A stretch of 64,000 nt of DNA from Geoalkalibacter sp. Lineage in GTDB: Bacteria > Desulfobacterota > Desulfuromonadia > Desulfuromonadales > Geoalkalibacteraceae. Every line of letters starts with the position of its first letter. Position 1 is the stretch's first letter. The notes beneath the pieces were generated by a model. It was not told where the DNA came from. It saw only the letters and a program-made list of their open reading frames with translations, and ran no database searches. The translations under genes and the position numbers were made by a program. Shown piece by piece: positions 15,871 through 43,410 of this stretch. Location of the stretch: the NCBI RefSeq assembly GCF_030605225.1, contig NZ_JAUWAV010000012.1, positions 1-64,000 on the forward strand, read 5' to 3'.

Positions 15871-15886
15871 TCTGGAGAGGATTGGG

Positions 15887-20195: not shown

Positions 20196-20562
20196 ATGCT
20201 CATTTTGTTATATGTCTTAAATTGTGGGATACGCGATCTGTTCCAGGTCTTTGAGTTCCCCTCCGTGGTGTGCGGTTAAGGTGGCCGATATGAGAGCGAG
20301 TTGCCGCCATTGTTTCGAAGAGACTTTAAATCGATTGGTTCGTGCATGCGGTTGAGGGATGTCAGTTAATTCGGATAATCAAGTTTGGCGGAAAGAAATT
20401 TAGGGAGGTTGCAAATACAATGACATTTGTATCGATAACCGCAAAAATTTGGCATAGATTTCAAATTAAGTAATGGATGTGAAGGGGCGGTTCTCTCTGC
20501 ACCGTCGAAGAAGGCTGTCTGGCACCTGTTTGGAAACCTCTATTCAGAGAAGGGAGATCGGC
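20196..20562 (+). other. Long untranslated leader of the catabolic operon
   Basis: If transcription starts near 20180, about 380 bases precede the first gene. I see no gene, riboswitch or terminator that I recognise in it. An in-frame ATG at 20473 lacks a ribosome site. Confidence 0.4.
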
Positions 20563-21828: not shown

Positions 21829-21839
21829 TCGACAAGAAC

Positions 21840-21881
21840 TTTTGCATGAGGGAGGGATGTTCCTCCCTCCCTCATGCAAAA
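21840..21881 (+). repeat. Perfect 18-bp hairpin between binding-protein and permease genes
   Basis: TTTTGCATGAGGGAGGGA (21840-21857) is fully complementary to 21864-21881 around a six-base loop. On the plus strand it ends in AAAA, not T, so it is more likely an mRNA-stabilising or partially terminating element. Such hairpins commonly let the binding protein be made in excess over the permease. Confidence 0.75.
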
Positions 21882-21899
21882 TACAGCCGGGGATAAGAG

Positions 21900-22772: not shown

Positions 22773-22868
22773 TCATCATCTATATTGCTATCCGCCTCGT
22801 GATCTTCTGGTTTGTATAAAACGCAAATAATCCTGTGTACATCGTCGCAGAAAAGTGGAGTCATACGG

Positions 22869-25344: not shown

Positions 25345-25391
25345 AAATTTATTTAACAAAGTTGTTTTTCACGCGAACGAGGTGGAGAAGG

Positions 25392-26825: not shown

Positions 26826-26895
26826 GCGACTGGGCTGGCCGCTGGCGCGGAGGCTGGGCCAGGTTAACGCAGAACACCGTAAGAAAGGGATATCA

Positions 26896-27687: not shown

Positions 27688-27754
27688 GTCAGAGAGACGT
27701 TCGCTGTTTTTCTGGGTGGGGTTGACGGAGTTTGCTGTCTCTCAGGAGTCACAG

Positions 27755-28753
27755 ATGACAAAACAAAACATGACTTTCATCAAAACTAGAGCCTACGGGC
27801 CGGCAGAAGGATTGATTCCGAACACTGGCCCTATCCCAGAACCCGGTTGTGGAGAAGTGCTTATTCAGGTCAGTGCCGCAGGCGTCAATCGTCCTGACGT
27901 ATTGCAACGCACTGGTAACTATCCGCCCCCGCCCGGGGCGTCGGATGTCCTCGGTCTGGAGGTTGCGGGAACCATCGTGGCAGTGGGGGAAGCAGTCAGT
28001 GATTGGCAGATTGGCGACCAGGTGTGTGCGTTGGTCGCCAGTGGCGGCTACGCTGAGTATTGCATCGCGCCGGCGCCCCAATGTTTGCCGGTCCCGAAGA
28101 ATTTCAGCATGGTCGAAGCCGCCGGTCTGCCCGAAACTTTTTTCACTGTTTGGACCAATGTCTTCGAGCGGGGGAAACTGCAAAAGGGCGAAACAGTTCT
28201 GATTCATGGCGGCTCCAGCGGCATCGGGACAACAGCTATCCAGTTGGCGCATGTCTTCGGCGCCAGAGTCTTTACCACCGTCGGCACGGATGCAAAATGC
28301 GTATTTTGCGAACATCTCGGCGCTGAAAAGGCGATCAACTACCGCGAAAAAAATTTCGTGGCAGAAGTGAAGAGTCTGACAGGGGGACAGGGGGTCGACC
28401 TGATTCTAGACATGGTGGGCGGGCCGTACATCGAGAAAAACATGGATGCCCTGGCAATGGAAGGCCGTTTGGTGCAGATCGCTTTTCTGCAGGAGAGCCG
28501 CGTTTCGGTCGATTTTCTGCCGATAATGGTGAAACGGCTGACGCTGACGGGATCGACCCTGCGTCCCCGCACGGTGGAACAAAAAGGCAGCATTGCCAAG
28601 GCTTTGAGAGAGAAGGTGTGGCCCCTTCTGGACGCCGGGACCGTCAAGCCTATCATCCATGCAACCTTTCCTCTTGAGCAGGCTGCTGATGCCCACCGGT
28701 TGATGGAGAGCAGCACCCATATTGGAAAGATCATTTTGGAGGTGAAACCGTGA
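27755..28753 (+). CDS. MDR-family NAD(P)H:quinone oxidoreductase-like enzyme
   Basis: A 332-residue zinc-independent medium-chain dehydrogenase/reductase of the quinone oxidoreductase (PIG3-like) group. The GroES-like half has AAGVNRPDVLQRTGNYPPPP; the Rossmann half has IHGGSSGIGTTAIQLAH. The zinc-ligand residues of alcohol dehydrogenases are missing, as expected for this group. The enzyme may reduce an enone or quinone intermediate. ATG at 27755 follows CAGGAGTCACAG; the frame is open upstream but lacks a better start. Its stop overlaps the next start (GTGA). Confidence 0.88.
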   Translation: MTKQNMTFIKTRAYGPAEGLIPNTGPIPEPGCGEVLIQVSAAGVNRPDVLQRTGNYPPPPGASDVLGLEVAGTIVAVGEAVSDWQIGDQVCALVASGGYAEYCIAPAPQCLPVPKNFSMVEAAGLPETFFTVWTNVFERGKLQKGETVLIHGGSSGIGTTAIQLAHVFGARVFTTVGTDAKCVFCEHLGAEKAINYREKNFVAEVKSLTGGQGVDLILDMVGGPYIEKNMDALAMEGRLVQIAFLQESRVSVDFLPIMVKRLTLTGSTLRPRTVEQKGSIAKALREKVWPLLDAGTVKPIIHATFPLEQAADAHRLMESSTHIGKIILEVKP

Positions 28754-29514
28754 GTAGCCACAAGGGAAAAGTTGTTCTTGTCACGGGTGCGGGAAGAGGT
28801 ATCGGTCGCAGCATTGCGGAATGTTTTGCGGCTCAGGGCGCCGCGGTCGGTGTCCTTGACTTTGATTCGGCTAACAGCAGTGAAACCGCCTCGGCTTTGC
28901 TGGCTCGAGGCTTTTTAGCGCACGGTGTTCAGGCTGATGTAGCGAATATCGATGAGGTCAGACAGGCTTGCGAACAAGTCGAAAAGGTTTTTGGGCCGAT
29001 TGATGTGCTTATCAATAATGCGGGCATTTCACCCAAACATAATGGAATTCGGGCCGAAGCCGCCGAGATGGATATTGAGGAATGGAAGAGTGTGATCGAT
29101 GTCAATTTAACGGGCTGCTTTAATACGGTTCGGGTGTTGGCAGGAGGAATGAAAAGTCGGAAAAGTGGTTCGATCATTAATATGTCTTCAGTCGCCGGAA
29201 AGGCTTACTGCCCTTTAGTTGGTATCCATTACAGCACTACCAAGGCGGCATTGATCGGCTTTACACGGCATCTTGCGGGTGAACTTGGGCCTTACGGCAT
29301 CACTGTTAATGCCATCGCGCCGGGTCGCATCGATACGCCGATGATGAGAACTGTTTCAGCAGCAGCAAACAAGGCGGTCATAGACCAAACTCCTTTAGGC
29401 CGCCTCGGGAGCCCTGAAGATGTTGCTAATTTAGCGCTTTTCCTAACGTCAGAAAAAGCAAATTTTATAACCGGGCAGGTCTGTGATGTCGCAGGAGGTT
29501 GGCTTATGACGTGA
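28750..29514 (+). CDS. Short-chain dehydrogenase/reductase (SDR) 1
   Basis: A 254-residue classical SDR with cofactor motif TGAGRGIG near residue 12, NNAG, the catalytic Ser region INMSSVAG and Tyr/Lys in YSTTKAA near residue 162. The acidic residue in VLDFDS after the second strand favours NAD. GTG start overlaps the previous stop by four bases, so the two are translationally coupled. FabG-like length; substrate unknown. Confidence 0.9.
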   Translation: MSSHKGKVVLVTGAGRGIGRSIAECFAAQGAAVGVLDFDSANSSETASALLARGFLAHGVQADVANIDEVRQACEQVEKVFGPIDVLINNAGISPKHNGIRAEAAEMDIEEWKSVIDVNLTGCFNTVRVLAGGMKSRKSGSIINMSSVAGKAYCPLVGIHYSTTKAALIGFTRHLAGELGPYGITVNAIAPGRIDTPMMRTVSAAANKAVIDQTPLGRLGSPEDVANLALFLTSEKANFITGQVCDVAGGWLMT

Positions 29515-29578
29515 CATTTTTTTCTGGTCAGTTGTCAGGTTAGCTTACAAATCTATAACACCAAAAAAGGAGAAACAA

Positions 29579-30319
29579 ATGTTCGATTTTAAAGGAAAAA
29601 CCCTTGTTTTGACTGGTGCCAATGGCGGTATTACTAAAAGCATCGCCAAAACGTTCTATGAGTTAGGCGCTAACATGGTCCTTACTGACCTGGATGAAAA
29701 GGGGTTGAAAGCATTCGCTAAAGAGCTCGACCCGAGCGGCAAAATTGTAATTCCAGTAAAGGTTGACGTCTCGAAATCTGAAGAATGTGATGCGGCTGCC
29801 AAAATCGCCAAAGATAATTTCGGCGGTGTGGACTTTCTGGTAACCGGTGCTGGACTGTATCGGGACCAGCTTATTGCAACCATGACGGATGCTCAATGGC
29901 GAGAGACTATCGGTGTGAACCTGGATGGTGTTTTTTATTTTTGCCGCAACATGATTCCCCTTCTGCGCGACGGAGGTGCTGTCGTTAATATCGCATCGAT
30001 GGCAGCCCATAGGGGCAGTTATCAGCATGCACATTATTCCGCCGCAAAAGGCGCAACGCTCAGCTTCTCGCGCAGTCTGGCGTTGGAATTGGCGCCAAGG
30101 ATTCGCGTTAACTCTATCTCGCCCGGGCTAATCGACACTCCGTTGATCCAACCTCTACTGAAGGTGAAAGGCCCACAGCTCATCGATTCGACTGCACTGA
30201 AAAGGTTAGGACGTCCGGAAGAAGTTGCGCAGCTTGTAGCCTATCTTTGCAGTGACTGGGCAAGCTTCATAACCGGCGAATCGATTCATATCAACGGGGG
30301 GCTTTATATCGCCGGATGA
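29579..30319 (+). CDS. Short-chain dehydrogenase/reductase (SDR) 2
   Basis: A 246-residue SDR. The catalytic residues are present (INIA-like VNIASMAAH, then HYSAAKGA). The cofactor motif reads TGANGGIT, so the third glycine of TGxxxGIG is replaced by Thr, which may weaken or alter cofactor binding. The LTDLDE acidic residue suggests NAD. AAAGGAGAAACAA precedes the ATG. It closes this block of the operon, before a long hairpin. Confidence 0.88.
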   Translation: MFDFKGKTLVLTGANGGITKSIAKTFYELGANMVLTDLDEKGLKAFAKELDPSGKIVIPVKVDVSKSEECDAAAKIAKDNFGGVDFLVTGAGLYRDQLIATMTDAQWRETIGVNLDGVFYFCRNMIPLLRDGGAVVNIASMAAHRGSYQHAHYSAAKGATLSFSRSLALELAPRIRVNSISPGLIDTPLIQPLLKVKGPQLIDSTALKRLGRPEEVAQLVAYLCSDWASFITGESIHINGGLYIAG

Positions 30320-30365
30320 CCCCTGGCGCTCAGGAGCATATCCAGTTAAAAGTTCTGCGAAACAG

Positions 30366-30415
30366 TCCTGCAGTTGATCTCCTGGAGCACCCGCTGAAGG
30401 AGATCAACTGCAGGA
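30366..30415. repeat. Perfect 18-bp inverted repeat
   Basis: TCCTGCAGTTGATCTCCT (30366-30383) is fully complementary to 30398-30415 around a 14-base loop. No T run follows on the plus strand, so a classical terminator is doubtful. It lies between the lower-GC SDR gene and the very GC-rich glcD-like gene. Confidence 0.75.
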
Positions 30416-30528
30416 TCGCAATAATGAGTATTGCGGTCATTTAGTAGGTCGTTTGTAAACACCAAGCTGTCTCGGCCAATCAAATTTCCAGGCGCTGTTT
30501 CCAAAGCGAAAGCCAGGTAGAAAGCTCG

Positions 30529-31911
30529 ATGCTGACATTAGCTATCGTAAAAAAACTCGAAACAATCGTCGGCGCCAAAAACGTCTACACCGGCAAGTCC
30601 GACCTGATTCTCTACAGCTATGACGCCACCCAGCAGAAGTTCCTGCCCGAGGTGGTGGTCCGCCCCGCTTCCACCGCCGAGATCGCCCGCGTCATGCAGC
30701 TGGCCAACGCCGAGATGATCCCGGTCTTCCCGCGCGGCGCGGGGAGCGGCTTCACCGGCGGCTCGCTGCCGACGAAGGGGGGGATCGTCCTGACCACCGA
30801 GCGGATGGACCGCATCCTGGAGATCGACGAGGAGAACCTGATCGCCACCGTCGAGCCGGGCGTCGTCACCGAACAGTTCCAATTGGCGGTGGAGAAGGTC
30901 GGTCTCTTCTACCCGCCCGACCCGGCTTCGCTGAAGTTCAGCACCCTCGGCGGCAACGTCGCCGAGTGCGCCGGCGGCCCGCGCTGCGTCAAGTACGGCG
31001 TCACCAAGGACTATATCCTCGGTCTGGAGGTCGTCACCCCCACCGGCGATGTCATCACCACCGGCGGCCCGACCATGAAGGGGGTCGTCGGCTACGACCT
31101 GACCAAGCTGATGTGCGGCTCGGAGGGGACCCTGGGGATCATCACCAAGATTGTCATCAAGCTGCTGCCCCTGCCCGAGGCGAAGAAGACCATGCTGGTG
31201 CTTTTCGATTCCATCGACGGCGCGGCGCAGGCGGTCTCGGCGATCATTCGCGGCAAGATCATCCCCACCACCCTCGAATTCATGGACGGCCGCACCATCG
31301 ACTGCGTCCGCCAGGCGACCGGCCTGCAGGTGCCCGAGAGCGCCCGCGCCGTGCTGATCATCGAGGTCGACGGCGACCGGGAGTTCCTCGACAAGCAGGC
31401 AGAAAAAATCGCCGGGATCATCCGCCCCCTGGGCGTGGTCGAGACCCGCATCGCCGAGACGCCGGCCGAGAGCGAGGCCCTCTGGCAGATCCGCCGCTCC
31501 GTCTCGGCGTCGCTGCGCAAGGTCAACCCCGACAAGTTCAACGAGGACATCTGCGTGCCCCGCTCGAAGGTGCCGGAGATGATCCGCAAGATCGACGCCA
31601 TCGCCGAGCGCCACGGCATCCCGATCGTCAACTTCGGCCACGCCGGCGACGGCAACATCCACGTCAACATCATGATCGACAAGAAGGTGCCGGGCGAGCT
31701 GGAGAAGGCGGAGCAGGCGATCGAGGAGGTCTTCAAGGGAGCGCTGGAACTCGGCGGCACCATGAGCGGCGAGCACGGCGTCGGCATCGCCAAGGCCCCC
31801 TACATCCCGCTGGAGATCACGCCGCAGGCCGCCGCCTACATGAAGACCATCAAGCGCGCCCTCGACCCGAACAATATTCTCAACCCAGGGAAGATTTTTC
31901 TGGAGGACTAA
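30529..31911 (+). CDS. glcD: FAD-linked oxidase, GlcD type (glycolate/D-lactate dehydrogenase)
   Basis: A 460-residue flavoprotein of the vanillyl-alcohol-oxidase/GlcD family. The FAD-binding half has PRGAGSGFTGGSLPTKGGIV and GGNVAECAGGPRCVKYG; the C-terminal half carries the catalytic FGHAGDGNIHVN near residue 370 and ends NPGKIFLED. It oxidises 2-hydroxyacids such as glycolate or D-lactate, passing electrons to the Fe-S partner encoded next. After the first ~15 AT-rich codons composition jumps (the row at 30721 is 80% GC, against 45% for the row at 29641), so the gene looks foreign to the block around it. Ribosome site weak (GAAAGC). Confidence 0.92.
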   Translation: MLTLAIVKKLETIVGAKNVYTGKSDLILYSYDATQQKFLPEVVVRPASTAEIARVMQLANAEMIPVFPRGAGSGFTGGSLPTKGGIVLTTERMDRILEIDEENLIATVEPGVVTEQFQLAVEKVGLFYPPDPASLKFSTLGGNVAECAGGPRCVKYGVTKDYILGLEVVTPTGDVITTGGPTMKGVVGYDLTKLMCGSEGTLGIITKIVIKLLPLPEAKKTMLVLFDSIDGAAQAVSAIIRGKIIPTTLEFMDGRTIDCVRQATGLQVPESARAVLIIEVDGDREFLDKQAEKIAGIIRPLGVVETRIAETPAESEALWQIRRSVSASLRKVNPDKFNEDICVPRSKVPEMIRKIDAIAERHGIPIVNFGHAGDGNIHVNIMIDKKVPGELEKAEQAIEEVFKGALELGGTMSGEHGVGIAKAPYIPLEITPQAAAYMKTIKRALDPNNILNPGKIFLED

Positions 31912-31918
31912 AAGTTGA

Positions 31919-32004
31919 AGCGTTGAATGCCCTGCGGGCGTTGAATCGTTGAACCGTTCAAATGCTCTCAACAATTCAACGAATCAACAATTCAACGATT
32001 CAAC
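31919..32004. repeat. GTTGAATCG-type intergenic inverted repeats
   Basis: The glcD-glcF spacer consists mostly of short GTTGAA/TTCAAC units. GTTGAATCGTTGAA (31940-31953) is perfectly complementary to TTCAACGATTCAAC (31991-32004). Such low-complexity spacers are, from memory, frequent in Desulfuromonadales; they are not CRISPR repeats because unit length and spacing vary. Confidence 0.7.
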
Positions 32005-32015
32005 AGGTTTTCATC

Positions 32016-33275
32016 ATGAGCAAACTGAAACAACTCGAAGCATTCCGTGAAGAGATCGAGCAGTGCGTCAAGTGCGGTGCCTGCCGCGCCCACTGCCCGG
32101 TGTTCGCCGCGGAGAAATACGAAGGCCGGGTCGCCCGGGGCAAGGTGGCCCTGGCCCAGTCGCTGCTCGCCGGCGAGGTCGATCTCGAGGAGAAGGTGCT
32201 CGAGGACATGAGCCAGTGCCTGCTCTGCGGCAGCTGCAAGGCCCAGTGCCCGAACAAGGTGCCGACCGACGAGATCGTCGCCGCCGTGCGCCGGCGCATC
32301 GCCGAGCAGAAGGGGCTCTCCAGCTTCGGCAAGGGGATCGCCGCCGTGCTCGGCCGGCCGAAGCTGATGAACGCCCTGGCCAAGACCGGCGGCGCCTTCT
32401 CCGCGCTGCTGTTCAAAAAGCTGCCGAAGGACAGCGGCCTGCGCCTGCGCTTCCCCGCCCCCTACCTGGAAGCCGACCGTACACTGCCGCCGATCACCGC
32501 CCGCCCCTTCCGCGAGCGGGTGCCCGAGGTGATCCCCGGCCAGGCGGGGCAACCGACCGTCGCCTTTTTCACCGGCTGCGGCATCAATTACATGTACCCG
32601 GCGGTGGGCGAGGCCTTCCTGCAGGCGCTGAAATTTCTCGGCGTCACCGTGGTCATCCCGAAAGACCAGGCCTGCTGCGGCCTGCCGGCGGTGAGCGCCG
32701 GGGCAGCCGGGACGGTCGAGAAGCTGGCAGCCCAGAATCTCGCCGCCCTCACCCGGCACAAGGTCGACTACGTCGTCACCGCCTGCGCCTCCTGCAACGC
32801 CGGTATCGGCAAGGTCTACGGCGATCTGGGGGAGGAATACCGGCAGCTCGGGGCGAAGACGCGCGACATCTTTGTCTTCCTCGTCGAGCAGGGCCTGCCC
32901 GGGAAGCTGGCGGCGCTCCCCAAAGCGGCCAGGCGCACGCGGGTCACCTACCACGACCCCTGCCACTTGCGTACCCAGGGAATCACCAAAGAGCCGCGGG
33001 CGATCCTCAAGGCGCTGCCGCAGGTCGAGTTCGTCGAGATGGCCGCGGCCGGCACCTGCTGCGGGCTCGGCGGCACCTACTCGGTCTACCACTACGAAAC
33101 CAGCAAGCAGATCGGCGCCAAGAAGGCGGCCAGCATCGCCGAATCCGGCGCCGAACTGGTCGCCACCGACTGTCCGGGCTGCATCATGCAGCTGCAGGAC
33201 TCCATCAACCATGCTGGCGGCGGCCAGCGCGCCGTCCACATCCTGGAGCTGCTGGCCGAGGCGCTGCCGGAATAA
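32016..33275 (+). CDS. glcF: Fe-S oxidoreductase, GlcF type
   Basis: A 419-residue electron-transfer partner of GlcD. Two [4Fe-4S] ferredoxin motifs lie near the N-terminus (CVKCGACRAHCP near residue 17, CLLCGSCKAQCP near 68), followed by two CCG domains (QACCGLP and GTCCGLGG, with CASC and CPGC). Electrons from 2-hydroxyacid oxidation would pass to the quinone pool. The ATG at 32016 gives the family start; the frame extends upstream into the repeats. As GC-rich as glcD; composition drops sharply right after the stop. Confidence 0.92.
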   Translation: MSKLKQLEAFREEIEQCVKCGACRAHCPVFAAEKYEGRVARGKVALAQSLLAGEVDLEEKVLEDMSQCLLCGSCKAQCPNKVPTDEIVAAVRRRIAEQKGLSSFGKGIAAVLGRPKLMNALAKTGGAFSALLFKKLPKDSGLRLRFPAPYLEADRTLPPITARPFRERVPEVIPGQAGQPTVAFFTGCGINYMYPAVGEAFLQALKFLGVTVVIPKDQACCGLPAVSAGAAGTVEKLAAQNLAALTRHKVDYVVTACASCNAGIGKVYGDLGEEYRQLGAKTRDIFVFLVEQGLPGKLAALPKAARRTRVTYHDPCHLRTQGITKEPRAILKALPQVEFVEMAAAGTCCGLGGTYSVYHYETSKQIGAKKAASIAESGAELVATDCPGCIMQLQDSINHAGGGQRAVHILELLAEALPE

Positions 33276-33323
33276 CAAAAAGGCTTATTAGCAAAACACC
33301 TAACAGCGTCGAGAGGCAAGCCA

Positions 33324-33548
33324 GTGAAAATCACTATTAAGCTTTATGGCGTTTTGCGGATGAATCGCTTTAAGGAGGAAACCCGCGAATATCCTGAAGG
33401 GACGACGGTTAAAGGGGTAATTGAAGACCTTGCCTTCCCTGGCAAACTGCTTGGCGCTGTGGTGGTCAACGATGTGCATGCAAATGTTGAGCAAGTTCTT
33501 GGCGATGGGGACTGTTTAATGATTTTGCCTCTGCTTGATGGGGGTTAA
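33324..33548 (+). CDS. MoaD/ThiS-family sulfur-carrier-like protein
   Basis: A 74-residue beta-grasp protein ending in the Gly-Gly tail (LLDGG) that is thiocarboxylated in MoaD and ThiS. The start is a GTG or ATG-like codon near 33324 (GTGAAAATC). It lies 52 bases before the aldehyde:ferredoxin oxidoreductase gene; family members in this position are thought to donate sulfur to the tungstopterin of AOR enzymes. No dedicated E1-like adenylyltransferase is nearby, so the cell's own would be used. Confidence 0.8.
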   Translation: MKITIKLYGVLRMNRFKEETREYPEGTTVKGVIEDLAFPGKLLGAVVVNDVHANVEQVLGDGDCLMILPLLDGG

Positions 33549-33600
33549 AAGATTTACCGATAATTTGTCGAATAAGCAATCAAACCAGGGAGATGCGATT

Positions 33601-35448
33601 ATGAAAATTCAGACGACGAATCCCGTAATGGAACCCCAGAAAGTGTTTTACCGGCGTGCGACAGTAGATTTAAAGACCGGCGAGATCACTGTTAAAGACA
33701 TACCCTGCCGCAACTTGGAGGATGTTCTCGGTGGATTTGGCCGCTCCTTTCAAGACTTGGCCACGCGTAACATCAAAACTGCCTATTGCGAAGAAAACCC
33801 GCTGATCGTCAATACCGGCTTGCTCACCGGCAGCAGCGTCATCACCGGCATGCGTACCTATTTCTCCAGCTACAGCCCGATCAAGGAGTCCAGAAAGGGA
33901 ATGCCGGCGGCGATGTGGTCTGCAAGCAGCGGCAAGTTCGGCGCCAAATTCAAGTGGACCGGCCTGGACGAGCTGATTCTCGAAAACCGCTCGGAGCATC
34001 CTGTTTATGTGCTCATCCGGGAAGGGGAAAACGGCCCGCAACTGGAGCTCAAACCTGCGAACAATTTGCTAGGTTTGACGACGCACGAGAAGATTATGGC
34101 CCTGCAAAACGAGTATGAGGAGGCTCATTTTGCTGCTATCGGTCCAGCAGGTGAGAAATGGCAAACCGTGAGCATGGGTGCGGTGGCTCTGAGTACCGAA
34201 AACCAGTTGAAAAGCAAAGAAGATAAAAGTCGTTTTGCCGGACGTGGAGGAATGGGTAGTTTGATGGGCTATAAAAATGTCGTTGCGCTGGTTGCTCAGA
34301 GCACCGACAAAATAAAGTCTCTATCCCCGGAAATCAAGAAAGTAAATCTGAACGTAATTAACGGCGGCGGGTCGACCCGTCTGCAGCCAATCAGTCGCGG
34401 TGGCGGCGGCGGCACCTGGGCTGGCTATGATTTTATGCAGCCTTTTCATGCTGTTCCTGTTAACAACTTCCGCCCGCAAGGGAACGACCTTCCGGAAAAA
34501 CTGTTTCGCGAAAATGTTGAAAAGGACTTTGTCATTAAATCCGAAGCATGTTTCCGGTGTGGGATCTCATGTCACAATAATATACATGAGAAGCAGGCGG
34601 ATGGCAGTGCGGGGAAATTTTTGGCCAAGTTTGATTATGAACCTCTCAACCTTCTAGGTACCAATATCGGTATTCACGAAGCCAGAAAAGCGGCCATGCT
34701 GATTCACGTTGCTGACAATTACGGGATGGATGCGATCTCGTTAGGCGCGACCATCTCATATGTACTGTCCTACAACGAGCGACACCCTGAAAAGCCAATG
34801 CTCAATGGGGCAACCTTCGGTGATTTCGATAAGATAAAGGAACTTGCCGAGCAAACAGGCCGCGGCAATTGCCCGGAAATCGGCCGAGGAGTCAAGCGGT
34901 TGTCAGAGAGTACAGGGGAGACAAGCTATGCCTACCATGTCAAAGGATTGGAGCTGCCGGCTTATCTTCCTGAGACCAACCCGGGATATGCGTGGTCAAT
35001 CGCCGGCGGCCATATGGCCATGGCGACTTATGGGCTACTGACCCGCGAGGGGAAAGCCGATGTGGATTCATGGGTGAAGGCCATTACGGATGAAAAGTTG
35101 CAGATCGTCGGTTTTGACATGATCGGGTTGTGCAAGTTCTTCGATATCGCCAAGGGCATCTGTACCCAGATGGTTGAGGATTGCCTGAAAAGCGAACACG
35201 GGCTTGAGGTGAAGGCGGCTGACCTTCGGACGTCTGTCAGAAAAGCTTTCATGCGTGGCCTCGCACTGGAGTTGCGTCAAGGCTACACGAAAGAAGAGTT
35301 CAGCTTACCTGCCGAGGTTTTTGAACGACCAAACGACAATATCAAACTTCCACGAATTGCCACCCGGGAATTCTTCGGTGAACTGTCCGAGAAAGTGTGG
35401 GCGGTGTTTGAACCTGAACTGAAAGGTCTGCTTTCGGATGCCAAATAG
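33601..35448 (+). CDS. Aldehyde:ferredoxin oxidoreductase family (tungstopterin enzyme)
   Basis: A 615-residue AOR-type enzyme; family members oxidise aldehydes (or reduce acids) with a tungsten bis-pterin and a [4Fe-4S] cluster. The N-terminal domain includes GRGGMGSLMGYKNVVALVAQ, typical of AOR pterin binding; three of the cluster cysteines are in CFRCGISC near residue 317, and a late Cys lies in the DMIGLCKFFDIAKGIC region. CAGGGAGATGCGATT precedes the ATG; an upstream frame start overlapping the MoaD-like gene is less likely. It probably handles an aldehyde made by the operon's dehydrogenases. Confidence 0.88.
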   Translation: MKIQTTNPVMEPQKVFYRRATVDLKTGEITVKDIPCRNLEDVLGGFGRSFQDLATRNIKTAYCEENPLIVNTGLLTGSSVITGMRTYFSSYSPIKESRKGMPAAMWSASSGKFGAKFKWTGLDELILENRSEHPVYVLIREGENGPQLELKPANNLLGLTTHEKIMALQNEYEEAHFAAIGPAGEKWQTVSMGAVALSTENQLKSKEDKSRFAGRGGMGSLMGYKNVVALVAQSTDKIKSLSPEIKKVNLNVINGGGSTRLQPISRGGGGGTWAGYDFMQPFHAVPVNNFRPQGNDLPEKLFRENVEKDFVIKSEACFRCGISCHNNIHEKQADGSAGKFLAKFDYEPLNLLGTNIGIHEARKAAMLIHVADNYGMDAISLGATISYVLSYNERHPEKPMLNGATFGDFDKIKELAEQTGRGNCPEIGRGVKRLSESTGETSYAYHVKGLELPAYLPETNPGYAWSIAGGHMAMATYGLLTREGKADVDSWVKAITDEKLQIVGFDMIGLCKFFDIAKGICTQMVEDCLKSEHGLEVKAADLRTSVRKAFMRGLALELRQGYTKEEFSLPAEVFERPNDNIKLPRIATREFFGELSEKVWAVFEPELKGLLSDAK

Positions 35449-35533
35449 TGACCAGCTTGGCTATTCTGCCGACATGGTCTGCAACATCGATTTCAGCGTT
35501 TGCGCTATTACGAGTCCTGTGGGGCAACATTAT

Positions 35534-36325
35534 ATGGCTGTGACATCTTGCACTTTTAAAGACATTGCTGGAAAGGTGGTGATCGTCACCGGAGGCAGCA
35601 GTGGCATTGGCTTCGCCATGGCTCAAGCATTTGCCGAAAACGGGGCTCACTTGATGTTGCTAGACATCGACAAAGAAGCCATGACAAAGGCCAAAGCGAA
35701 TCTTGAACGGATCAACCCTCAGTACGAAGTCGCAACCGTCAGTGCATCGGTGACCGATGAAGATGCCATTGAGGCGGCATTCGCCCGTTGCGAATCAGGC
35801 TTTGGCCGCATCGACATTCTTCTCAACAATGCAGGTATTGCAATCAACAAGCCGTCACTCGAGGTTACTCCGGAGGAGTGGAGACGAGGCATCGAAATTA
35901 ACCTCACAGGTGTATTTATCTGTGCTCAGGCCGCAGCCCGGCGCATGATTCGGCAAAAAAATGGCGTAATTATCAATATGGCGTCCATGTATGGAGTTGC
36001 ATCAGCTCCGCAGCGCGCAGCCTATTGCGCATCCAAGGCAGGGGTTGTCTCGCTGACTAAATCGTTGGCCGTGGAATGGGCGCCTTATGGCATCCGTATG
36101 AATGCCATAGGTCCAGGCTACACACGCACCCCGTTTGTTGAGGAGTTGGTCCGGACTGGTCGATTGAACATGGAGTCGTTGCGCCAGCGTACGCCTCTTG
36201 GCCGTTTGGGTGAGCCCGAAGAAATGGCTAACATCGCTCTGTTTCTCGCCTCTGATTGTAGCGCCTTTGTCACCGGGCACACGCTCATAGCCGATGGCGG
36301 ATGGACGGCCAACGGGTACATGTAA
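35534..36325 (+). CDS. Short-chain dehydrogenase/reductase (SDR) 3
   Basis: A 263-residue SDR: cofactor motif TGGSSGIG, NNAG, INMASMYG and catalytic YCASKAG. The LLDIDK acidic residue suggests NAD. Two other ATGs lie upstream in frame (35438, 35474); the chosen one gives a normal N-terminus (VTSCTFKDIAGKVVIVTGG) but has only GGGGCAACATTAT before it. Third SDR of the island, suggesting several hydroxyl/keto steps. Confidence 0.86.
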   Translation: MAVTSCTFKDIAGKVVIVTGGSSGIGFAMAQAFAENGAHLMLLDIDKEAMTKAKANLERINPQYEVATVSASVTDEDAIEAAFARCESGFGRIDILLNNAGIAINKPSLEVTPEEWRRGIEINLTGVFICAQAAARRMIRQKNGVIINMASMYGVASAPQRAAYCASKAGVVSLTKSLAVEWAPYGIRMNAIGPGYTRTPFVEELVRTGRLNMESLRQRTPLGRLGEPEEMANIALFLASDCSAFVTGHTLIADGGWTANGYM

Positions 36326-36381
36326 ATTTCTGGGCCGGTGGATGTGTAAAAGGTGTTCAGTACGCTATTTTGGAGATTGTC

Positions 36382-36873
36382 ATGACAATCCGAATGATTG
36401 CTCCTCTTGAGGTCGGCATCTGCTGTCGCAACCTCTCTGAAATGCGTCTTTTTTATGAAGAGACGCTTGGTTTTTCTTTCATCGGCGAAGCTGTCGTTGC
36501 TGCCGAAACTGCAGTGTCGTTGGGCCTCAGTGCAGAGGGCTATAAGGTAGTCAGGCTACAAACCCCTTACGGCGAACGCATCAAGTTGTTGGCCTCTGAT
36601 ACCCCCCCGGCAGCGGGGACCAGTTTTACATATTTTCTTGAAAACCCTGGTGCGACTTATCTGACCTTCATCGTTGACAACATAGGTGCGACGATCAAGC
36701 GCCTCCTTGCCTCCGGAATCACATTCATAACGGGCTCTGAGAGTGTTCAGGTTCGTCCCGGGGTGCAAGCCGCTTTTTGTCGCGATCCCGAAGGGAACAC
36801 TCTGGAGTTAGTGGAGTTCGCGGACATCAGCTCCTACCGACAAGATTTAAAGAAAGCTGACTTATCTCTTTAG
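36382..36873 (+). CDS. VOC (glyoxalase/bleomycin-resistance) family protein
   Basis: A 163-residue single VOC module (LEVGICCRNLSEMRLFYEET, then LGFSFI ... CRDPEGNTLELVEF). Members are metal-dependent lyases, isomerases or dioxygenases; the Glu in the LELVE strand is a usual metal ligand. GGAGATTGTC precedes the ATG. In this context it could be an epimerase or isomerase of a CoA or keto intermediate; that is inference. Confidence 0.82.
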   Translation: MTIRMIAPLEVGICCRNLSEMRLFYEETLGFSFIGEAVVAAETAVSLGLSAEGYKVVRLQTPYGERIKLLASDTPPAAGTSFTYFLENPGATYLTFIVDNIGATIKRLLASGITFITGSESVQVRPGVQAAFCRDPEGNTLELVEFADISSYRQDLKKADLSL

Positions 36874-36972
36874 ACATCGAGATGGAAAATTCTGCTGCTG
36901 GTTGGCACATGCCCATTTCATTGTCCGATGACAATAAGACAGTACCCTTTCCAAGATTACTGGAGAACTACC

Positions 36973-39147
36973 ATGTCGAGCATTAAGACGCTGAAACCTC
37001 TTGCATCTTGGCAAGAACTGCGTGCGACTCCGAAGGACTGGGATGCTGCCTCGCCGATAAAGCTCGGCTCGATGTTGACCTGTCTGCACCTGATCCGTGC
37101 CTTCGAAAAGGCGACTCTCGACTGTGCAACCAAAGGCCTTGTTCACGGTCCGGTGCATTCGAGTATCGGGCAGGAAGGCGGAGCGGTCGGTTCGATTCTG
37201 GCACTAAAAAAAGGGGACAAAGTTAATGGTTCTCACCGAGGTCACCACCAGTTCCTGGCAAAAGCATTGAGCCATGTGTCTCCGGGCGGACTCGTACCGA
37301 CAGCACCCGTTCCGGCAGACGTGTATGCCGTATTGAAGAAGACTCTTGCAGAAATCATGGGCTTGGCCCAGGGGTACTGCAAAGGTCGGGGCGGCTCGAT
37401 GCATCTGCGCTGGGAGGATGCTGGCATGCTCGGAACCAATGCAATTGTCGGCGGCGGCACACCAATGGCCGCAGGTGTCGCCTGGTGTAATAAACGGGCA
37501 GGGACCGATAATGTCGTAGTCAATTATTTTGGCGATGGGGCAGCCAATATCGGTTCCGTGCTCGAAACGTTCAATCTGGCGGCCGCGTGGAAATTGCCTG
37601 TCTGCTTCTTTATTGAAAACAACCACTATGCAGTATCGACCGCCGTCGCGGAGGTCACGGGAGACTCCCGGTTGTCGGGGCGTGGTCCTGGTTTCAATAT
37701 TCCAGCTTGGCGAGTTGACGGCATGGATCCTCTTGCGGTTTTCCTGGCAATGGAGGAGGCACTGGCCCATATGCGTAACGCCAAGGGACCGACTCTGATC
37801 GAGGCGGAGGTTTACCGTGAAACTCATCATAGCGGTCCGATGCCCGGGAGTGCGTTTCGTTATCGCAGCAAAGAGGAGGAATCCCTCTGGAAAGCTCGCG
37901 ATCCGTTGGAACAGATGGAAAAAGAGATGCTGGCTCGCAAACTGATTACTGAAGAAGAAATCGCTTCACTTCAGAGGCAAGCACAGGATGCGATGCATCA
38001 CGTTATTGCCGAGTTGACCGAGAAAAATGGCCCTAGCTTTGCGATCAAAGCGGATCTGTGGCCAAAGCCAGATTTCTGCAATTTCGGGATCCGTGGGAAT
38101 CTTTCTGAAATGGAAGGGCTCCGAACGGAAGAGTTGCGTGACTATGAGGGAAAACTTCGGGAAATGAAATTGGTCGAGGCGGCGGCAGGGGTCATGCTAC
38201 GACGAATGGAAACCGATGAACGGATTGTGGTGATGGGCGAAGACGTTCATCGTCTGGGTGGTGGGACCAACGGCGTGACCAAGGGGATTCCGGAACGTTT
38301 TCCCGACCGGATTCTGGGAACCCCAATCTCGGAAAACGCCTTTGTTGGCCTCGGGGGCGGCATGGCCATGGATGGCAGGTTCAGGCCAGTGGTCGAACTG
38401 ATGTACGCGGATTTTTTCTGGGTGGCGGCGGATCAGGTTTTCAACCAGGTCGCCAAAGCAAGGCATATGTACGGAGGCGACCTGGAAATGCCTTTTGTCC
38501 TCAGGACCAAAATTGCCATAGGGACGGGATACGGCTCTCAACACTCGATGGATCCGGCCGGCGTGTTTGCAATGTCACCCGGATTGCGAATCGTGGCACC
38601 CTCCACCCCCTTTGACTATATCGGTCTGATGAATAGCGCTTTGGCTTGCAACGACCCGGTGGTGGTCCTCGAACATGTTGAGCTTTACAATACCGTTGGC
38701 CTGGTCCCTGAGGAAGACATGGACTATTTCATCCCCTTAGGAAAGGCGAAGGTGGCAAGGTCTGGTAAAGAACTTACCATTCTCACCTACCTGTCCATGG
38801 TCAAAAAATCTGTCGAAGTGGCAGAATCGCTGGGGATCGATGCTGAAGTCATTGACCTGCGCACACTTGATCGCGCAGGACTGGACTGGGACACCATCGG
38901 CGCAAGCATTCAGAAAACCAATAATGTGCTGATCGTTGAACAGGGGACCTTGGGGAATTCCTACGGAACAATGCTGGGTGACGAAATCCAGAGACGGTAC
39001 ATGGACTGGCTCGATCAACCGGTCAAAAGAGTCCATGGCGCCGAAGCCTGGCCAAGTGTGTCAAAGGTGCTGGAGGCTGCTGCAAATGCGGGCCAGGAAG
39101 AGATCAAGCGAGAGCTCCTTGCCATGTTGAAGGATGCAGGGAAGTAG
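36973..39147 (+). CDS. Fused E1 (alpha-beta) component of a 2-oxoacid dehydrogenase complex
   Basis: A 724-residue protein joining the E1 alpha domain (TPP motif GDGAANIG then ENN, near residue 186) to the E1 beta (transketolase-like) domain from about residue 398 (EAAAGVMLRRMETDERIVVM, GTPISENAFVGLGGGMAMDG). In most bacteria the two are separate acoAB/pdhAB/bkdA genes; fused forms are known in some lineages. It decarboxylates a 2-oxoacid (pyruvate, branched-chain oxoacid or acetoin-type substrate) onto lipoyl-E2. GGAGAACTACC precedes the ATG. First of a complete E1-E2-E3 set. Confidence 0.9.
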   Translation: MSSIKTLKPLASWQELRATPKDWDAASPIKLGSMLTCLHLIRAFEKATLDCATKGLVHGPVHSSIGQEGGAVGSILALKKGDKVNGSHRGHHQFLAKALSHVSPGGLVPTAPVPADVYAVLKKTLAEIMGLAQGYCKGRGGSMHLRWEDAGMLGTNAIVGGGTPMAAGVAWCNKRAGTDNVVVNYFGDGAANIGSVLETFNLAAAWKLPVCFFIENNHYAVSTAVAEVTGDSRLSGRGPGFNIPAWRVDGMDPLAVFLAMEEALAHMRNAKGPTLIEAEVYRETHHSGPMPGSAFRYRSKEEESLWKARDPLEQMEKEMLARKLITEEEIASLQRQAQDAMHHVIAELTEKNGPSFAIKADLWPKPDFCNFGIRGNLSEMEGLRTEELRDYEGKLREMKLVEAAAGVMLRRMETDERIVVMGEDVHRLGGGTNGVTKGIPERFPDRILGTPISENAFVGLGGGMAMDGRFRPVVELMYADFFWVAADQVFNQVAKARHMYGGDLEMPFVLRTKIAIGTGYGSQHSMDPAGVFAMSPGLRIVAPSTPFDYIGLMNSALACNDPVVVLEHVELYNTVGLVPEEDMDYFIPLGKAKVARSGKELTILTYLSMVKKSVEVAESLGIDAEVIDLRTLDRAGLDWDTIGASIQKTNNVLIVEQGTLGNSYGTMLGDEIQRRYMDWLDQPVKRVHGAEAWPSVSKVLEAAANAGQEEIKRELLAMLKDAGK

Positions 39148-39165
39148 TCCTGAAAGGAGATGCTC

Positions 39166-40431
39166 ATGCCTATTGATATTCGGATGCCGTCCCTAGACCC
39201 TTCGATGAGTGAAGCGAGGGTTGTCAAATGGCTGAAGGCTGCGGGAGACCCTGTCGAGATCGGCGAACCGATCGTCGAGATCGAGACCGACAAAGCCGTT
39301 GTTGATGTTGAAGCAGAGGCAAAGGGGTTCTTTGCAAAAGCTCTGGTTGCCGAAGGAAGCTATGCGCCAGTTAATTCGGTGATTGGAATAATTATGGAGA
39401 CAGGCAAAGGAGTGACCGCATTGCAGGAGGTGGCCGCTGCTCCTACCAAATCAGCGGAGGAACGAATGCCCGGGCTCACTCCTGCGGAACCCCCTGTTTC
39501 GCTTGAGCCCAGGAATTTATCCGAGAAAGAAATCCCGCCTTCCGCAACTCGCCAGTTCGCCAGCCCTCTTGCCCGTCGCCTGGCTACCTTGGAAGGTTTG
39601 GACCTGACACAGCTCCGCGGATCGGGGCCGAACGGCCGAATTGTGAAAGGCGATATCGAGTCGGCGCTGAAGGCAAAATCCGCTCAAGGTGTTCCCTGCA
39701 CACGAATGCAGGCAGAGGTTCCGGGCCGCGAATTCTCCGGTCTGCCAGATTGCGAAGTGTTCAGCAATACATCTATGCGCAGCTCTATTGCGCGCCGTTT
39801 GACCGAATCAAGTCGGGAGATACCCCATTACTACCTGGTCCTCGATTGCGAACTGGATAAACTGCTGGCCTTGCGGCAGGAGGTGAACGCTGCCGATCAC
39901 GACGGGGAGAAGGTCTCCCTCAATGATTTTATAATTCGCGCGGCGGCGCTCGCCTTGAAAAAGGTTCCTGCGGCCAATGCCGCCTGGACCGAGTCCGCTA
40001 TTCTGCGCTTCAGGCAGGCTGACATTTCCGTCGCCGTGTCACTTGACGGAGGCCTGATCACCCCGGTTGTACGCAATGCCGATGCCAAAAACTTGCGGCA
40101 GATCTCTGCCGAGGCCAGGGAACTTGCCGCTCGGGCCAGAGCTGGGAAGCTTCTGCCGGAGGAGTACAAGGGGGGAACATTCACTATCTCCAATCTCGGG
40201 ATGTATGGCATCAAGAGTTTTACTTCGATCATCAATCCGCCGCAGGGGGCCATCCTTTCCGTAGGCGCAGGGGAGCCGCGCCCGGTAGTCAAGGAAGGAC
40301 AGCTATGCGTTGCCACTGTCATGACCGTTACCCTCGCAGCTGATCATCGCTGCATCGATGGCGCGGTTGGCGCGGAGTTCCTCGCTGCCTTCAAGAAGCT
40401 GATTGAACAGCCGATTGCGTTGCTGTTTTAG
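39166..40431 (+). CDS. Dihydrolipoamide acyltransferase (E2)
   Basis: A 421-residue E2: one lipoyl domain with the modified Lys in EIETDKAVVDVEA near residue 43, a peripheral-subunit-binding domain (ASPLARRLATLEG ... GSGPNGRIVKGDIE) near 130-165 and the catalytic acyltransferase domain with DHRCIDGAVGAEFL near 392, where Cys replaces the usual Val. AAGGAGATGCTC precedes ATG 39166, better spaced than the ATG at 39160. It transfers the acyl group from E1 to CoA. Confidence 0.93.
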   Translation: MPIDIRMPSLDPSMSEARVVKWLKAAGDPVEIGEPIVEIETDKAVVDVEAEAKGFFAKALVAEGSYAPVNSVIGIIMETGKGVTALQEVAAAPTKSAEERMPGLTPAEPPVSLEPRNLSEKEIPPSATRQFASPLARRLATLEGLDLTQLRGSGPNGRIVKGDIESALKAKSAQGVPCTRMQAEVPGREFSGLPDCEVFSNTSMRSSIARRLTESSREIPHYYLVLDCELDKLLALRQEVNAADHDGEKVSLNDFIIRAAALALKKVPAANAAWTESAILRFRQADISVAVSLDGGLITPVVRNADAKNLRQISAEARELAARARAGKLLPEEYKGGTFTISNLGMYGIKSFTSIINPPQGAILSVGAGEPRPVVKEGQLCVATVMTVTLAADHRCIDGAVGAEFLAAFKKLIEQPIALLF

Positions 40432-40441
40432 GAGAATCCCC

Positions 40442-41845
40442 GTGGCGAAAGCAGAATTTGACATCATCGTTCTTGGTGCCGGCCCCGGTGGTTACGTTGG
40501 GGCGATACGCGCCGCCCAGTTGGGTTTCAGAACTGCGCTGATTGAAGCAAACCACTTGGGAGGCGTTTGTCTGAACTGGGGCTGCATCCCGACGAAGGCG
40601 ATGTTGAGATCGGCAGAGATTTATCGCCAATTCAAGCATGCCGAGAGCTACGGACTGAGTTCGTCGCAGGTTGAATTCGACCTGCAGAAGATCGTTGCCC
40701 GGTCCCGCAATATCGCAAAACAATTGAGTTCCGGTGTGGCCCATCTCCTGAAAAAGAACAAGGTCACCGTCTTCGACGGCTACGGCAGGCTACTCGGAGG
40801 TGGGAAGCTAAGCGTTGAAAAAAATGGTAGGGAACCCTTGTTCTTGTCAGGGAAGCACATCCTTCTTGCCACCGGTTCCCGGCCGCGCATATCCCCGGGC
40901 CTGGAGCCCGACGGGAATCTGGTCTGGACATCGAAGGAAGCGTTAGTCCCGAAATCGCTGCCACCATCTCTGTTGGTCATCGGATCCGGTGCCATCGGTA
41001 TAGAGTTCGCCAGCTTTTACAATGCCTTTGGTTCGAAGGTGACGGTTGTCGAGATCATGGACCAGATCCTGCCCACCGAAGACCGGGAAATCGCTGAATT
41101 TGCCCAAAAGGAGATGGAGAAACAAGGCATCCGGTTTCTCCTCGGGACCAAGGTTGGCAACTTGCGCCGAGATGAAGGCACGGTTGAGGCCACTTGCGAA
41201 AAAGCTGGAAAATCGGAGAGTATCACTGTGTCCAGGGTCATCTCTGCGGTCGGCGTTGTGCCGAACGTCGAAGATATTGGTCTTGAAGCTGCGGGTGTCC
41301 TCCTGGACGCCCGTGGTTTCATCCAGACCAATGCACATGGGCGGACGACGGCGGAGGGAATTTTTGCAATAGGAGATGTGTCAGGAGGGCCATGCCTTGC
41401 TCACAAGGCAAGCCACGAAGCCATCCTGTGTGTCGAAACAATCGCAGGTTTACAAGGGGTTCATGCGCTGGACAAGACTCTGATCCCGAGTTGCACTTAT
41501 AGCCATCCGCAGGTCGCTAGTGTCGGCCTCACCGAGGTCATGGCAAAAGAAGCTGGCAACCAGATCAATGTCGGACGTTTTCCCGCCAGGGGTAACGGCA
41601 AGGCCATTGCTATGGGCGAGCCCGAAGGATTGGTGAAAACCATTTTTGACGCACGAACGGGAGAACTGTTGGGCGCCCACCTTGTGGGTGCGGAGGTGAC
41701 GGAGTTGATTCAAGGTTTTGCAATTGCCAAGAACCTGGAGACCACAGAGGTAGACCTCATTCGTACCATATTTCCGCACCCCACGCTCTCCGAGATGATT
41801 CACGAGTCGGTACTTGGCGCCTGCGGCCGTGCGATTCATGTTTAG
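40442..41845 (+). CDS. lpd: Dihydrolipoamide dehydrogenase (E3)
   Basis: A 467-residue flavoprotein that reoxidises lipoamide with NAD+. FAD motif GAGPGGYVGAIRAAQLG at the N-terminus, redox-active disulfide GGVCLNWGCIPTK near residue 45, NAD motif GSGAIGIEFASF and the C-terminal catalytic His/Glu in HPTLSEMIHES. GTG start after GGAGAATCCCC. The gene ends 36 bases before the end of comM, i.e. at the right edge of the island. Confidence 0.95.
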   Translation: MAKAEFDIIVLGAGPGGYVGAIRAAQLGFRTALIEANHLGGVCLNWGCIPTKAMLRSAEIYRQFKHAESYGLSSSQVEFDLQKIVARSRNIAKQLSSGVAHLLKKNKVTVFDGYGRLLGGGKLSVEKNGREPLFLSGKHILLATGSRPRISPGLEPDGNLVWTSKEALVPKSLPPSLLVIGSGAIGIEFASFYNAFGSKVTVVEIMDQILPTEDREIAEFAQKEMEKQGIRFLLGTKVGNLRRDEGTVEATCEKAGKSESITVSRVISAVGVVPNVEDIGLEAAGVLLDARGFIQTNAHGRTTAEGIFAIGDVSGGPCLAHKASHEAILCVETIAGLQGVHALDKTLIPSCTYSHPQVASVGLTEVMAKEAGNQINVGRFPARGNGKAIAMGEPEGLVKTIFDARTGELLGAHLVGAEVTELIQGFAIAKNLETTEVDLIRTIFPHPTLSEMIHESVLGACGRAIHV

Positions 41846-41880: not shown

Positions 41881-43410
41881 TTACCTTGTCTTCCGATCCA
41901 GCCCCCGGTACTGAATCGCCTCGGCCAGGTGCTCCTGACGGATCTGCTCCTCGCCAGCCAAATCAGCAATCGTCCTAGCCACCTTGAGGATGCGGGCGTA
42001 GCTGCGGGCGGAAAGCCCAAGGCGGTCGGTGACCATCTCCAGCAGTTTATGCCCCTGCTCATCGACCGGACAGAACTTTCGGATATGACGGGCGGCCATT
42101 GCGGCGTTGGCGTGTAGGCCATAAGGGGCGAGGCGCTCACGCTGCACCTGGCGGGCGGCCTCCACCCGTGCGCGGATGGCGGCCGAAGGTTCGGCATCCG
42201 CAGGGTCAGCCAGGTCCCGGTGAGGGACGCGAGGGACTTCGACATGCAGGTCGATGCGGTCGAGCAGCGGGCCGGAAAGACGCCGCCGGTAATGCAGAAT
42301 GTCGTGCGGTGTACAAGTGCATAAGTTGCCGGATTCAAAGAGAAATCCGCACTTGCAGGGGTTCATGGCGGCCACCAGCATGAAGTCGGCGGGGTAGGTG
42401 AGGCTGGTGGCGGCGCGCGCGATGGTCACCTGCCCATCTTCGAGGGGCTGGCGCAGCATCTCCAGCACGTTTTTCTTGAATTCCGGCAGTTCGTCCAGAA
42501 ACAACACGCCGTTGTGCGCCAGGCTCACCTCGCCGGGTCGCGGATAGCTGCCGCCGCCGATGAGCCCCGCGTCGGAAATGGTGTGGTGGGGGTGGCGAAA
42601 AGGGCGCCGCGCGATCAGGGCCTGCTTTTCGGGCAACAGGCCCATCACCGAGTGGATCTTGGTGGTTTCCAGGGCTTCGGCGAAGCTCAGATCGGGCAGG
42701 ATGGTGGAGATGCGCCGCGCCAGCATGGTCTTGCCGCTGCCGGGCGGGCCGACCATCAGCATGTTGTGGCCGCCGGCCGCCGCGACCTCGAGGGCGCGCT
42801 TGGCGTGCTCCTGACCGCGTACCTCGGCGAAATCCTCGGCGCCCTGAAGCGCCCGGTCGAACAGTTCCGACGCCGGTGGGGCGCAGGGTTCCAGGGGCCG
42901 TTCGCCGTTGAGAAAGGCCACCACCTCGCCGAGATCGCGCACGCCGTAGACCTTGAGGCCCTCGACGATAGCGCCCTCCGGGGTGTTTTCCTCGGGCAGG
43001 ATGAGGCCCTGCGTCCGCCAGTCGCGCGCCGCCACCGCCACCGGCAGCACGCCGCGCACCGGTTTGACGCGGCCGTCGAGGGACAACTCGCCCATCATGA
43101 CGAAGCGCCCGGCGGCGCCCTCCTTGACCAGTCCCGTCGCGGTGAGCAGGCCCACGGCCATGGGCAGGTCGAAGGCGGCACCGTCTTTTTTGATGTCGGC
43201 GGGGGCGAGATTGATGGTGATGCGGCGCGCGGGAAATTCGTAGCCGGAATTCTTGATGGCCGAGATGACGCGATCCTTGCTTTCGCGCACCGCCCCCTCG
43301 GGCAGGCCCACCGTGGAGAATTGCGGCAGGCCCTGGGCGATGTCGACTTCGACGTCCACGGGATAGGCGTCAATGCCCAGCAGTGCGCCGGACAGGACTT
43401 TGGCGAGCAT
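41881..43410 (-). CDS. comM: Full-length ComM/YifB-family AAA+ ATPase (probable chimera)
   Basis: A 509-residue Mg-chelatase-like protein; ComM is a hexameric helicase that helps branch migration during natural transformation. The N-terminal ChlI-like domain is followed by Walker A GPPGSGKTMLARR near residue 220, Walker B GVLFLDELPEF, sensor AAMNPCKCG near 350 and the C-terminal Mg-chelatase domain (LSGPLLDRIDLHVEVPR). AGGAGGGGACGCC precedes the ATG. The part after NPC (CGFLFESGNLCTCTPHDILH) is unlike the displaced segments 1 and 2, which look more typical, so the 3' third was probably brought in by the latest island. Confidence 0.95.
   Translation of the reverse strand: MLAKVLSGALLGIDAYPVDVEVDIAQGLPQFSTVGLPEGAVRESKDRVISAIKNSGYEFPARRITINLAPADIKKDGAAFDLPMAVGLLTATGLVKEGAAGRFVMMGELSLDGRVKPVRGVLPVAVAARDWRTQGLILPEENTPEGAIVEGLKVYGVRDLGEVVAFLNGERPLEPCAPPASELFDRALQGAEDFAEVRGQEHAKRALEVAAAGGHNMLMVGPPGSGKTMLARRISTILPDLSFAEALETTKIHSVMGLLPEKQALIARRPFRHPHHTISDAGLIGGGSYPRPGEVSLAHNGVLFLDELPEFKKNVLEMLRQPLEDGQVTIARAATSLTYPADFMLVAAMNPCKCGFLFESGNLCTCTPHDILHYRRRLSGPLLDRIDLHVEVPRVPHRDLADPADAEPSAAIRARVEAARQVQRERLAPYGLHANAAMAARHIRKFCPVDEQGHKLLEMVTDRLGLSARSYARILKVARTIADLAGEEQIRQEHLAEAIQYRGLDRKTR
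42353..42360. other. Putative attachment core (TTGCAGGG) inside full comM
   Basis: The same eight bases that limit the displaced comM segments. If integration occurs here, this is the reconstituted site where a native 5' part meets an island-borne 3' part. Confidence 0.45.

Follow-up and report, generated by a model that had tools for sequence, protein, structure and literature searches.

How does a gene that is read in one uninterrupted frame come to share its locus with displaced copies of its own 3' end, and which of these ends did it originally possess? This question is raised by comM in the stretch of 64,000 nucleotides analysed here (the window, on contig C12 of genome G000). The working gene (43410..41881, minus strand) is a 509 aa ORF that carries ChlI, Mg_chelatase and Mg_chelatase_C in one frame, all above the Pfam cut-off, with Walker A at residue 221, the Walker B region at 303 and cysteines at 352, 354, 364 and 366; by these domain features its predicted product is a ComM / Mg chelatase-like AAA+ protein. 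NPC occupies residues 350-352 (codon 350 begins at 42363) and is followed by KCGFLFESGNLCTCTPHDIL, while the two displaced 3' segments of Table 1 continue after NPC with NPCNCGFYGDSLQQCSCTP in segment A and QPCNCGFAGDSLRECSCTP in segment B, the first N being lost in B. Two relatives of the same genus, G001 and G003, read NCGFYGD(S/T)LQQCSCTPLMLQRYKTR at NPC. Directly after NPC the working gene is thus unlike both displaced segments, as the original prediction had stated, and A has the genus form. The further suggestion that the displaced pattern is nearer to the usual ComM form holds for A, since the PHDI form of the working gene occurs at only two loci (the window and G037) among the 28 of 30 full-length comM loci, window included, that were compared in this region.

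Table 1. Features of the window's comM locus, in order of position.
Feature	Position	Strand	Basis
Displaced segment A, original comM 3' end	4735..5211 (match 5217..4744, residues 350-507)	minus	identity to G001/G003; collinear with G003; clade 99/94
attR A: element half type 2 + native comM 3'; TG 5211-5210	5191..5245	minus	arm matches G052 attL arm and both G037 attR arms
HTH gene, attR end of rear unit (start codon provisional)	5256..5696	plus	HTH_31; 69% identical to the gene at 15248
Rear-unit cargo kdpABCDE	6091..14076	plus	Pfam
Possible further comM 3' remnant	14203..14288	minus	two weak matches, E 0.23 and 1.7
Displaced comM 3' segment B, foreign	14706..15182 (match 15188..14715, residues 350-507)	minus	128/155 to G010, 124/155 to G001; outside native clade
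attR B: element half type 3 + comM 3' segment B; TG 15182-15181	15160..15215	minus	half-site type shared with G051 3846 kb
HTH gene, attR end of front unit	15248..15658	plus	HTH_31
HipBA-like pair beside HTH gene	15803..17407	plus	HipA_C, Couple_hipA above cut-off; small upstream protein, HTH match below cut-off
comM 3' remnant, 5'-truncated, ~residues 451-508; probably older unit boundary	17434..17637	minus	tblastn 64.7%
Front-unit cargo: GntR-type regulator, branched-chain amino acid type ABC transporter, dehydrogenases, FAD oxidase/Fe-S pair, aldehyde ferredoxin oxidoreductase, 2-oxoacid dehydrogenase complex	18872..41845		Pfam, ORFs
Foreign comM 3' part, in-frame join, residues 353-509	41881..42355	minus	118/155 to G001; AU rejection of native clade; first 20 codons island-type
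Inferred TG crossover dinucleotide, Cys codon of NPC; restored attB-like site	42356..42357	minus	attP arm centre in G051, G009, G052; inside breakpoint range; exact bases indistinguishable within shared CCCTG
Native comM 5' part, residues 1-351	42358..43410	minus	aa identity to G001/G003; 5' tree

The two parts of the gene differ in their relation to the genus. Residues 1-352 agree with G001 at 334/352 positions and with G003 at 333/352, close to the agreement of these two with each other (337/352). Over residues 353-507 the working copy matches G003 at 115/155 (for G001 see Table 1), and it is segment A that matches both relatives about as well as they match each other (145/155 to G001, 144/155 to G003; G001/G003 144/155). 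The original prediction also took the downstream two-thirds to be similar again, which stands only loosely, considering that nucleotide identity to G001 past the core is 69.7% for the working copy against 86.1% for segment A. A two-segment identity model of the window against G001 placed the best split at nt 1068 of the gene with a gain of 37.1 log-likelihood units; 500 shuffles never gained more than 7.4, and the control pair G001/G003 gained 4.5. The 2-unit range of this breakpoint, nt 1045-1071, has the core TG at 1053 inside it. The GC profile at the junction, suggested as a second check, was uninformative: codons 351-375 have a GC content of 0.51 in the window and 0.53 in G001, and a GC step as a junction marker adds nothing beyond the native profile.

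Separate phylogenies of the two parts gave different sisters, and not the shared sister that would have contradicted the prediction. In the 5' tree (28 rows) the window groups with G001 and G003 (98/92). In the 3' protein tree (47 rows) segment A takes that place and the working 3' part falls outside the native clade, joining island-borne 3' ends of other families with support of 93/89 (not starred), or 95/89 in the DNA tree, whose bootstrap is not settled and in which six rows deviate in base composition. Forcing the working 3' part together with segment A, G001 and G003 was rejected by the AU test on protein (p-AU 0.025), again after removal of the first 31 residues (residues 384-509, p 0.015), and on DNA (p 0.0006); the protein p-values are moderate, and the clade tests were run after the identities had already been seen. 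The 3' trees exclude g106_seg_5432, which reads beyond the usual stop, and the 45-row tests exclude in addition g51_seg_159103 (internal stop codon) and G135 (contig end).

The order of the flanking genes points the same way. G001 and G003 have a single uninterrupted comM each; G003 is collinear with window 2687-4059, segment A, comM and most of 43.5-47.7 kb and has none of the 37 kb between, and G001 is collinear likewise, but only from segment A onward. Because of this empty-site collinearity, segment A is, on comparative grounds, the original 3' end of this comM, now ~37,000 bases off, and the ~37 kb were inserted. Just past the native 3' end, window 4084-4407 holds a ParE-type toxin gene in a stretch unmatched in the G003 locus.

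A second case is G037, where the locus lies on a single contig. Compared with its sister G023, its residues 1-352 match at 337/352, residues 353-507 of the working copy at 114/155 and the distal displaced segment at 151/155; native placement of the working 3' part was rejected (AU p 0.001), the best split is at nt 1064 (range 1046-1068, core 1053 inside), and the flank order is the same as in G023. The middle segment of G037 stands beside G005 of another family in the 3' tree (93/87, not starred). By the same comparisons as in the window, G037 is a second chimeric comM.

One might argue that there is no chimera at all and that we are looking at ordinary variation after NPC, or at an assembly artefact, considering that the residues just after NPC vary among families and that the window's assembly consists of 89 contigs. 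However, the genus match belongs to the displaced copy rather than to the working one, rejection of the native clade stands without the variable 31 residues, and the same structure is found in the single-contig G037, and we regard this explanation as hardly credible. From the step in identity, the breakpoint range that contains the core, the AU rejections and the different sisters, comM is best described as a chimera joined at the NPC core, native before it and foreign after it, in agreement with the original prediction of a native 5' part and an island-borne 3' part joined at the integration core. The gene retains its own front two-thirds, and the foreign tail was apparently spliced on at a recombinase crossover site together with cargo.

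The source of the foreign tail is less simple. Its first 20 codons are 0.73-0.82 identical to four island-type rows and at most 0.62 to ten other tabulated rows; thereafter the nearest rows vary stretch by stretch. With the first 31 residues removed the nearest row is G010, as it is for residues 385-507 (105/123). As it is mainly these first 20 codons that are akin to island ends, the foreign tail may be a mosaic, or may come from an unsampled lineage. Among the 30 comM loci and the further contigs inspected, the island-type signature was seen only in G000, G037, G051 and G109. In the last of these, two contigs each bear a full-length comM, the two genes differing in 3' type, and another contig bears an attR whose end is island-type (C23, C90, C111); G109 is possibly a mixed bin.

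What, then, occupies the 37 kb between the native 3' end and the working gene? By its gene order it consists of at least two units, each running from a comM 3' end through cargo to an HTH gene and an attR, with no cognate integrase. Their cargo comprises genes for catabolism and transport together with a HipA gene, and kdpABCDE. The matches listed for 58 genomes include 18 displaced comM 3' segments starting at residues 345-352; 17 of them have an HTH homologue next to them, in some cases a fragment, the sole exception being G038:C144. Several cargo units continue from the HTH gene into HipA-type genes, namely those at the G051 joints at 3770, 3792, 3861 and 3880 kb, in the window and at the G117 joints. 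Neither a PF00589 nor a PF00239 match was found on contig C12 of G000, in G037 45-75 kb or in six G051 units at 3770-3919 kb, and homology search found no cognate integrase in these three places; the nearest recombinase in the window's genome is 26% identical and lies on another contig. Judged by gene content, the window islands are not complete integrase elements. A tyrosine integrase was considered as the agent and set aside, as none of the PF00589 matches of G000 and G037 falls within these loci, and the one near the G051 array (3961272) lies inside the integrase element and not at a joint.

Since the window has neither a cognate integrase nor an attL, we infer its element from relatives. 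Where a comM 5' match ends at residues 358-366, a cognate integrase is adjacent in 5/5 genomes (G051, G009, G052, G011, G020). In G051 it is a 497-residue serine recombinase whose gene is directed toward the cut comM 5' end, and the G009 integrase has the domains PF00239 (Resolvase) and PF07508 (Recombinase). The attL of G051 reads ..AATCCC-TG-GAGTTGTGGACCCCTTTACC and its displaced 3' ends GGTAAAGGGGTCCACATC(C/T)C-TG-..; joining the element halves gives 15-bp inverted arms around ATCCCTGGAGTT, with TG central. The joined halves of G052 read AAAAGATGTTCAAACCCC-TG-GGGGTTTGAACATCTTTT, with one mismatch further out and arms longer than in G051, and those of G009 have similar longer inverted arms with one mismatch. 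From this inverted-repeat symmetry of attP, TG is deduced as the crossover. A complete attP could be deduced for G051, G052 and G009, and the arms of attR A and B in the window are of types found in relatives. The NPC core thus appears to be where a large serine integrase that targets comM makes its crossover. A Tn7-like insertion, raised by the type-1 ends TGT..ACA, was rejected because no target duplication was seen and both ends are one palindrome around TG.

In a wider scan of the best 80 of 287 integrase relatives, whose hosts are labelled from Desulfuromonadales to Acidobacteria, Bacteroidetes and Planctomycetes, comM at >50% identity lies in the flank of 52. This is the comM 5' part at 50 of these loci, its match ending at residues 348-367 in 48 and at 396 and 403 in two, and the 3' part at the remaining two (L150 and L151). 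There (L150 1463-3408, L151 6001-7845) the integrase is directly upstream of the comM 3' part in the same direction, a layout opposite to that of the other comM-linked loci. At L168 4394-8515 a full-length comM lies ~1.5 kb from a second comM cut beside the integrase. The integrase-bearing elements are large (~79 kb in G009, 92 kb in G052, 86 kb in G051), and that of G009 encodes TraC, TraK, TraE, TrbI-like, DsbC and TrfA-like genes besides the integrase, an ICE-like content with F-type conjugation genes.

In G051 an integrase element comes first, followed by six units whose 3' ends are of island type and finally by a 3' end of native type. Its joints share ~2.9 kb at ~95% identity. Several joint pairs differ in divergence between the comM side and the HTH side, for example 3792/3919 with 0.969 vs 0.811 and 3770/3880 with 0.691 vs 0.928; on these values the two sides of the joints have different histories. 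Past the HTH gene, four units agree at 97-99% over 2 kb, and divergence is greater on the comM side of the joints. One unit of ~4 kb between two comM 3' ends (G051:C1:3788186-3792577; L032 8187-12577) carries Fic/RhuM-like and Abi_2-like genes. The six displaced island-type segments have dN/dS values of 0.05-0.16 (15 pairs), next to 0.03-0.09 in 11 comparison pairs, which may only reflect a past in working genes and is no proof of periodic use.

We propose the following scenario, taking the junction between a comM 3' end and cargo as given at its start. A large serine integrase on a conjugative, ICE-like element would recombine attP with comM at the TG of NPC, interrupting the gene; the element could travel in one circle with cargo units lying behind an internal attR. 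After integration, excision might take place between attL and the first attR behind the element, rejoining the native comM 5' part to the 3' end of the front cargo unit. An intact frame would be back, the cargo would be left behind without integrase, and the native 3' end would be stranded at the far attR. The restored comM would be a target again, and repeated rounds would produce arrays. G051 looks like the pre-excision state of such a cycle, and the window and G037 look like the post-excision state. We give a probability of roughly 60% to this scenario, in which an integrase element departed through attL x attR excision and comM was rebuilt with the 3' end of the front unit. It is supported by the collinearity, the breakpoints at the core in the window and G037, the differing sisters, the adjacency of the integrase in all five genomes, the attP repeats, the G051 array with its joint histories and the conjugation genes of G009. 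We infer the excision itself, the joint travel of element and cargo, the repeated rounds and the roles of the HTH protein and the chimeric ComM.

Several observations count against this scenario. A 24-base attP core pattern had 0 matches in viral contigs, plasmids and phages gave no hit to the integrase at E 1e-60, and the working 3' part is island-like mainly in its short first stretch. A further point is that G029:C4 and G040:C55 contain broken integrase genes close to pieces of HTH or comM 3' sequence, and by these remnants decay in place also happens. Homologous recombination could perhaps reach the same end without site-specific joining, DNA of another species with a whole comM and its cargo having replaced a resident insertion via crossovers in comM and in the HTH region. 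ComM has a role in natural transformation, and recombination has been discussed as a way of rescuing comM in Acinetobacter, in the part of that report drawn on here (PMC11472951); the shared sequence of the G051 joints is long enough for homologous exchange, and the possible mosaic nature of the foreign 3' part would fit as well. Yet both chimeras are native up to breakpoint ranges that hold the core, where a homologous crossover could have fallen elsewhere, and we consider this route unlikely. A still less probable route is the insertion of an integrase-less circle with an attR-like site (HTH half and comM 3' half) into intact comM, with the integrase supplied in trans. This would give the same end product in one step, and in the window and G037 the units are indeed present and the cognate integrase absent, but no cargo circle with such a site was seen, and attR and attB are not a normal substrate pair for serine integrases.

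More broadly, comM might be the anchor of a serine-integrase cassette system, in which an ICE-like engine couples and uncouples integrase-less cargo through comM 3' ends that serve as half a recombination site and as a working tail of the host protein. Cargo would then cross families, and ComM would be repeatedly rebuilt and not destroyed. We offer this wider view tentatively, at a little short of even odds. If arrays form in this way, stranded comM 3' ends record the lineages that the cargo has passed through. An example might be G042:C86:4438-4917, a displaced 3' end that matches G106, of another family, at 147/155 and G042's own comM at 109/155, the two lying on separate contigs of a draft genome in which contamination is possible.

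How does this compare with known systems? That large serine recombinases target magnesium chelatase genes has been reported (Durrant et al. 2022, PMC10083194; also PMC9203015), and the recombinases of Durrant et al. are of the same kind and, by annotation, have the same target gene; in the parts of that work that were compared, rebuilt chimeric targets and integrase-less cargo arrays are not described. The sr1WO element of Wolbachia prophage WO is a phage, and its target gene, by the portion of the account used here, is disrupted with portions on both sides (PMC9203015). In Acinetobacter, comM is likewise an insertion hotspot, for AbaR and other elements; these are Tn7-like and others, inactivate comM, and recovery is discussed via homologous recombination, and comM insertions are usually discussed as disabling DNA uptake, so far as the compared sections of that source go (PMC11472951). 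Here, in contrast, comM still has an intact frame after the insertion, and the final third of its protein is no longer the host's own.

Cis-mobilizable elements (CIMEs) and accretion are similar in that, in the sections of the source compared, elements without integration and transfer genes stand in tandem at one site and are moved with a complete element (PMC5704250), as the units of the window may have been. The loss of integration genes that marks a CIME is found on contig C12 of G000 as far as PF00589 and PF00239 are concerned. However, a CIME keeps attL and attR and its tandem scheme proceeds by integration into attR, again by the sections compared (PMC5704250), whereas the window has attR and, at its left end, a rebuilt comM (5' joined to 3') and no attL. 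The staphylococcal SCC composite islands, in what was compared of them, resemble the present case in that elements with a serine recombinase and units lacking one are arranged in tandem at a single gene. The SCC target is rlmH, and SCC is not known to us to replace a third of the protein of its host. The kind of integrase and its target are thus known already, as are, in kind, integrase-less tandem units, so far as the sources compared go. The top-ranked titles and abstract openings of the literature searched contained no rebuilt chimeric comM or comM cargo arrays, and an island that looks to supply, at the integration core, a new last third for the ComM of its host, and to do so in arrays, is apparently new. 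If true, it would explain how large integrase-less islands reach one fixed chromosomal site.
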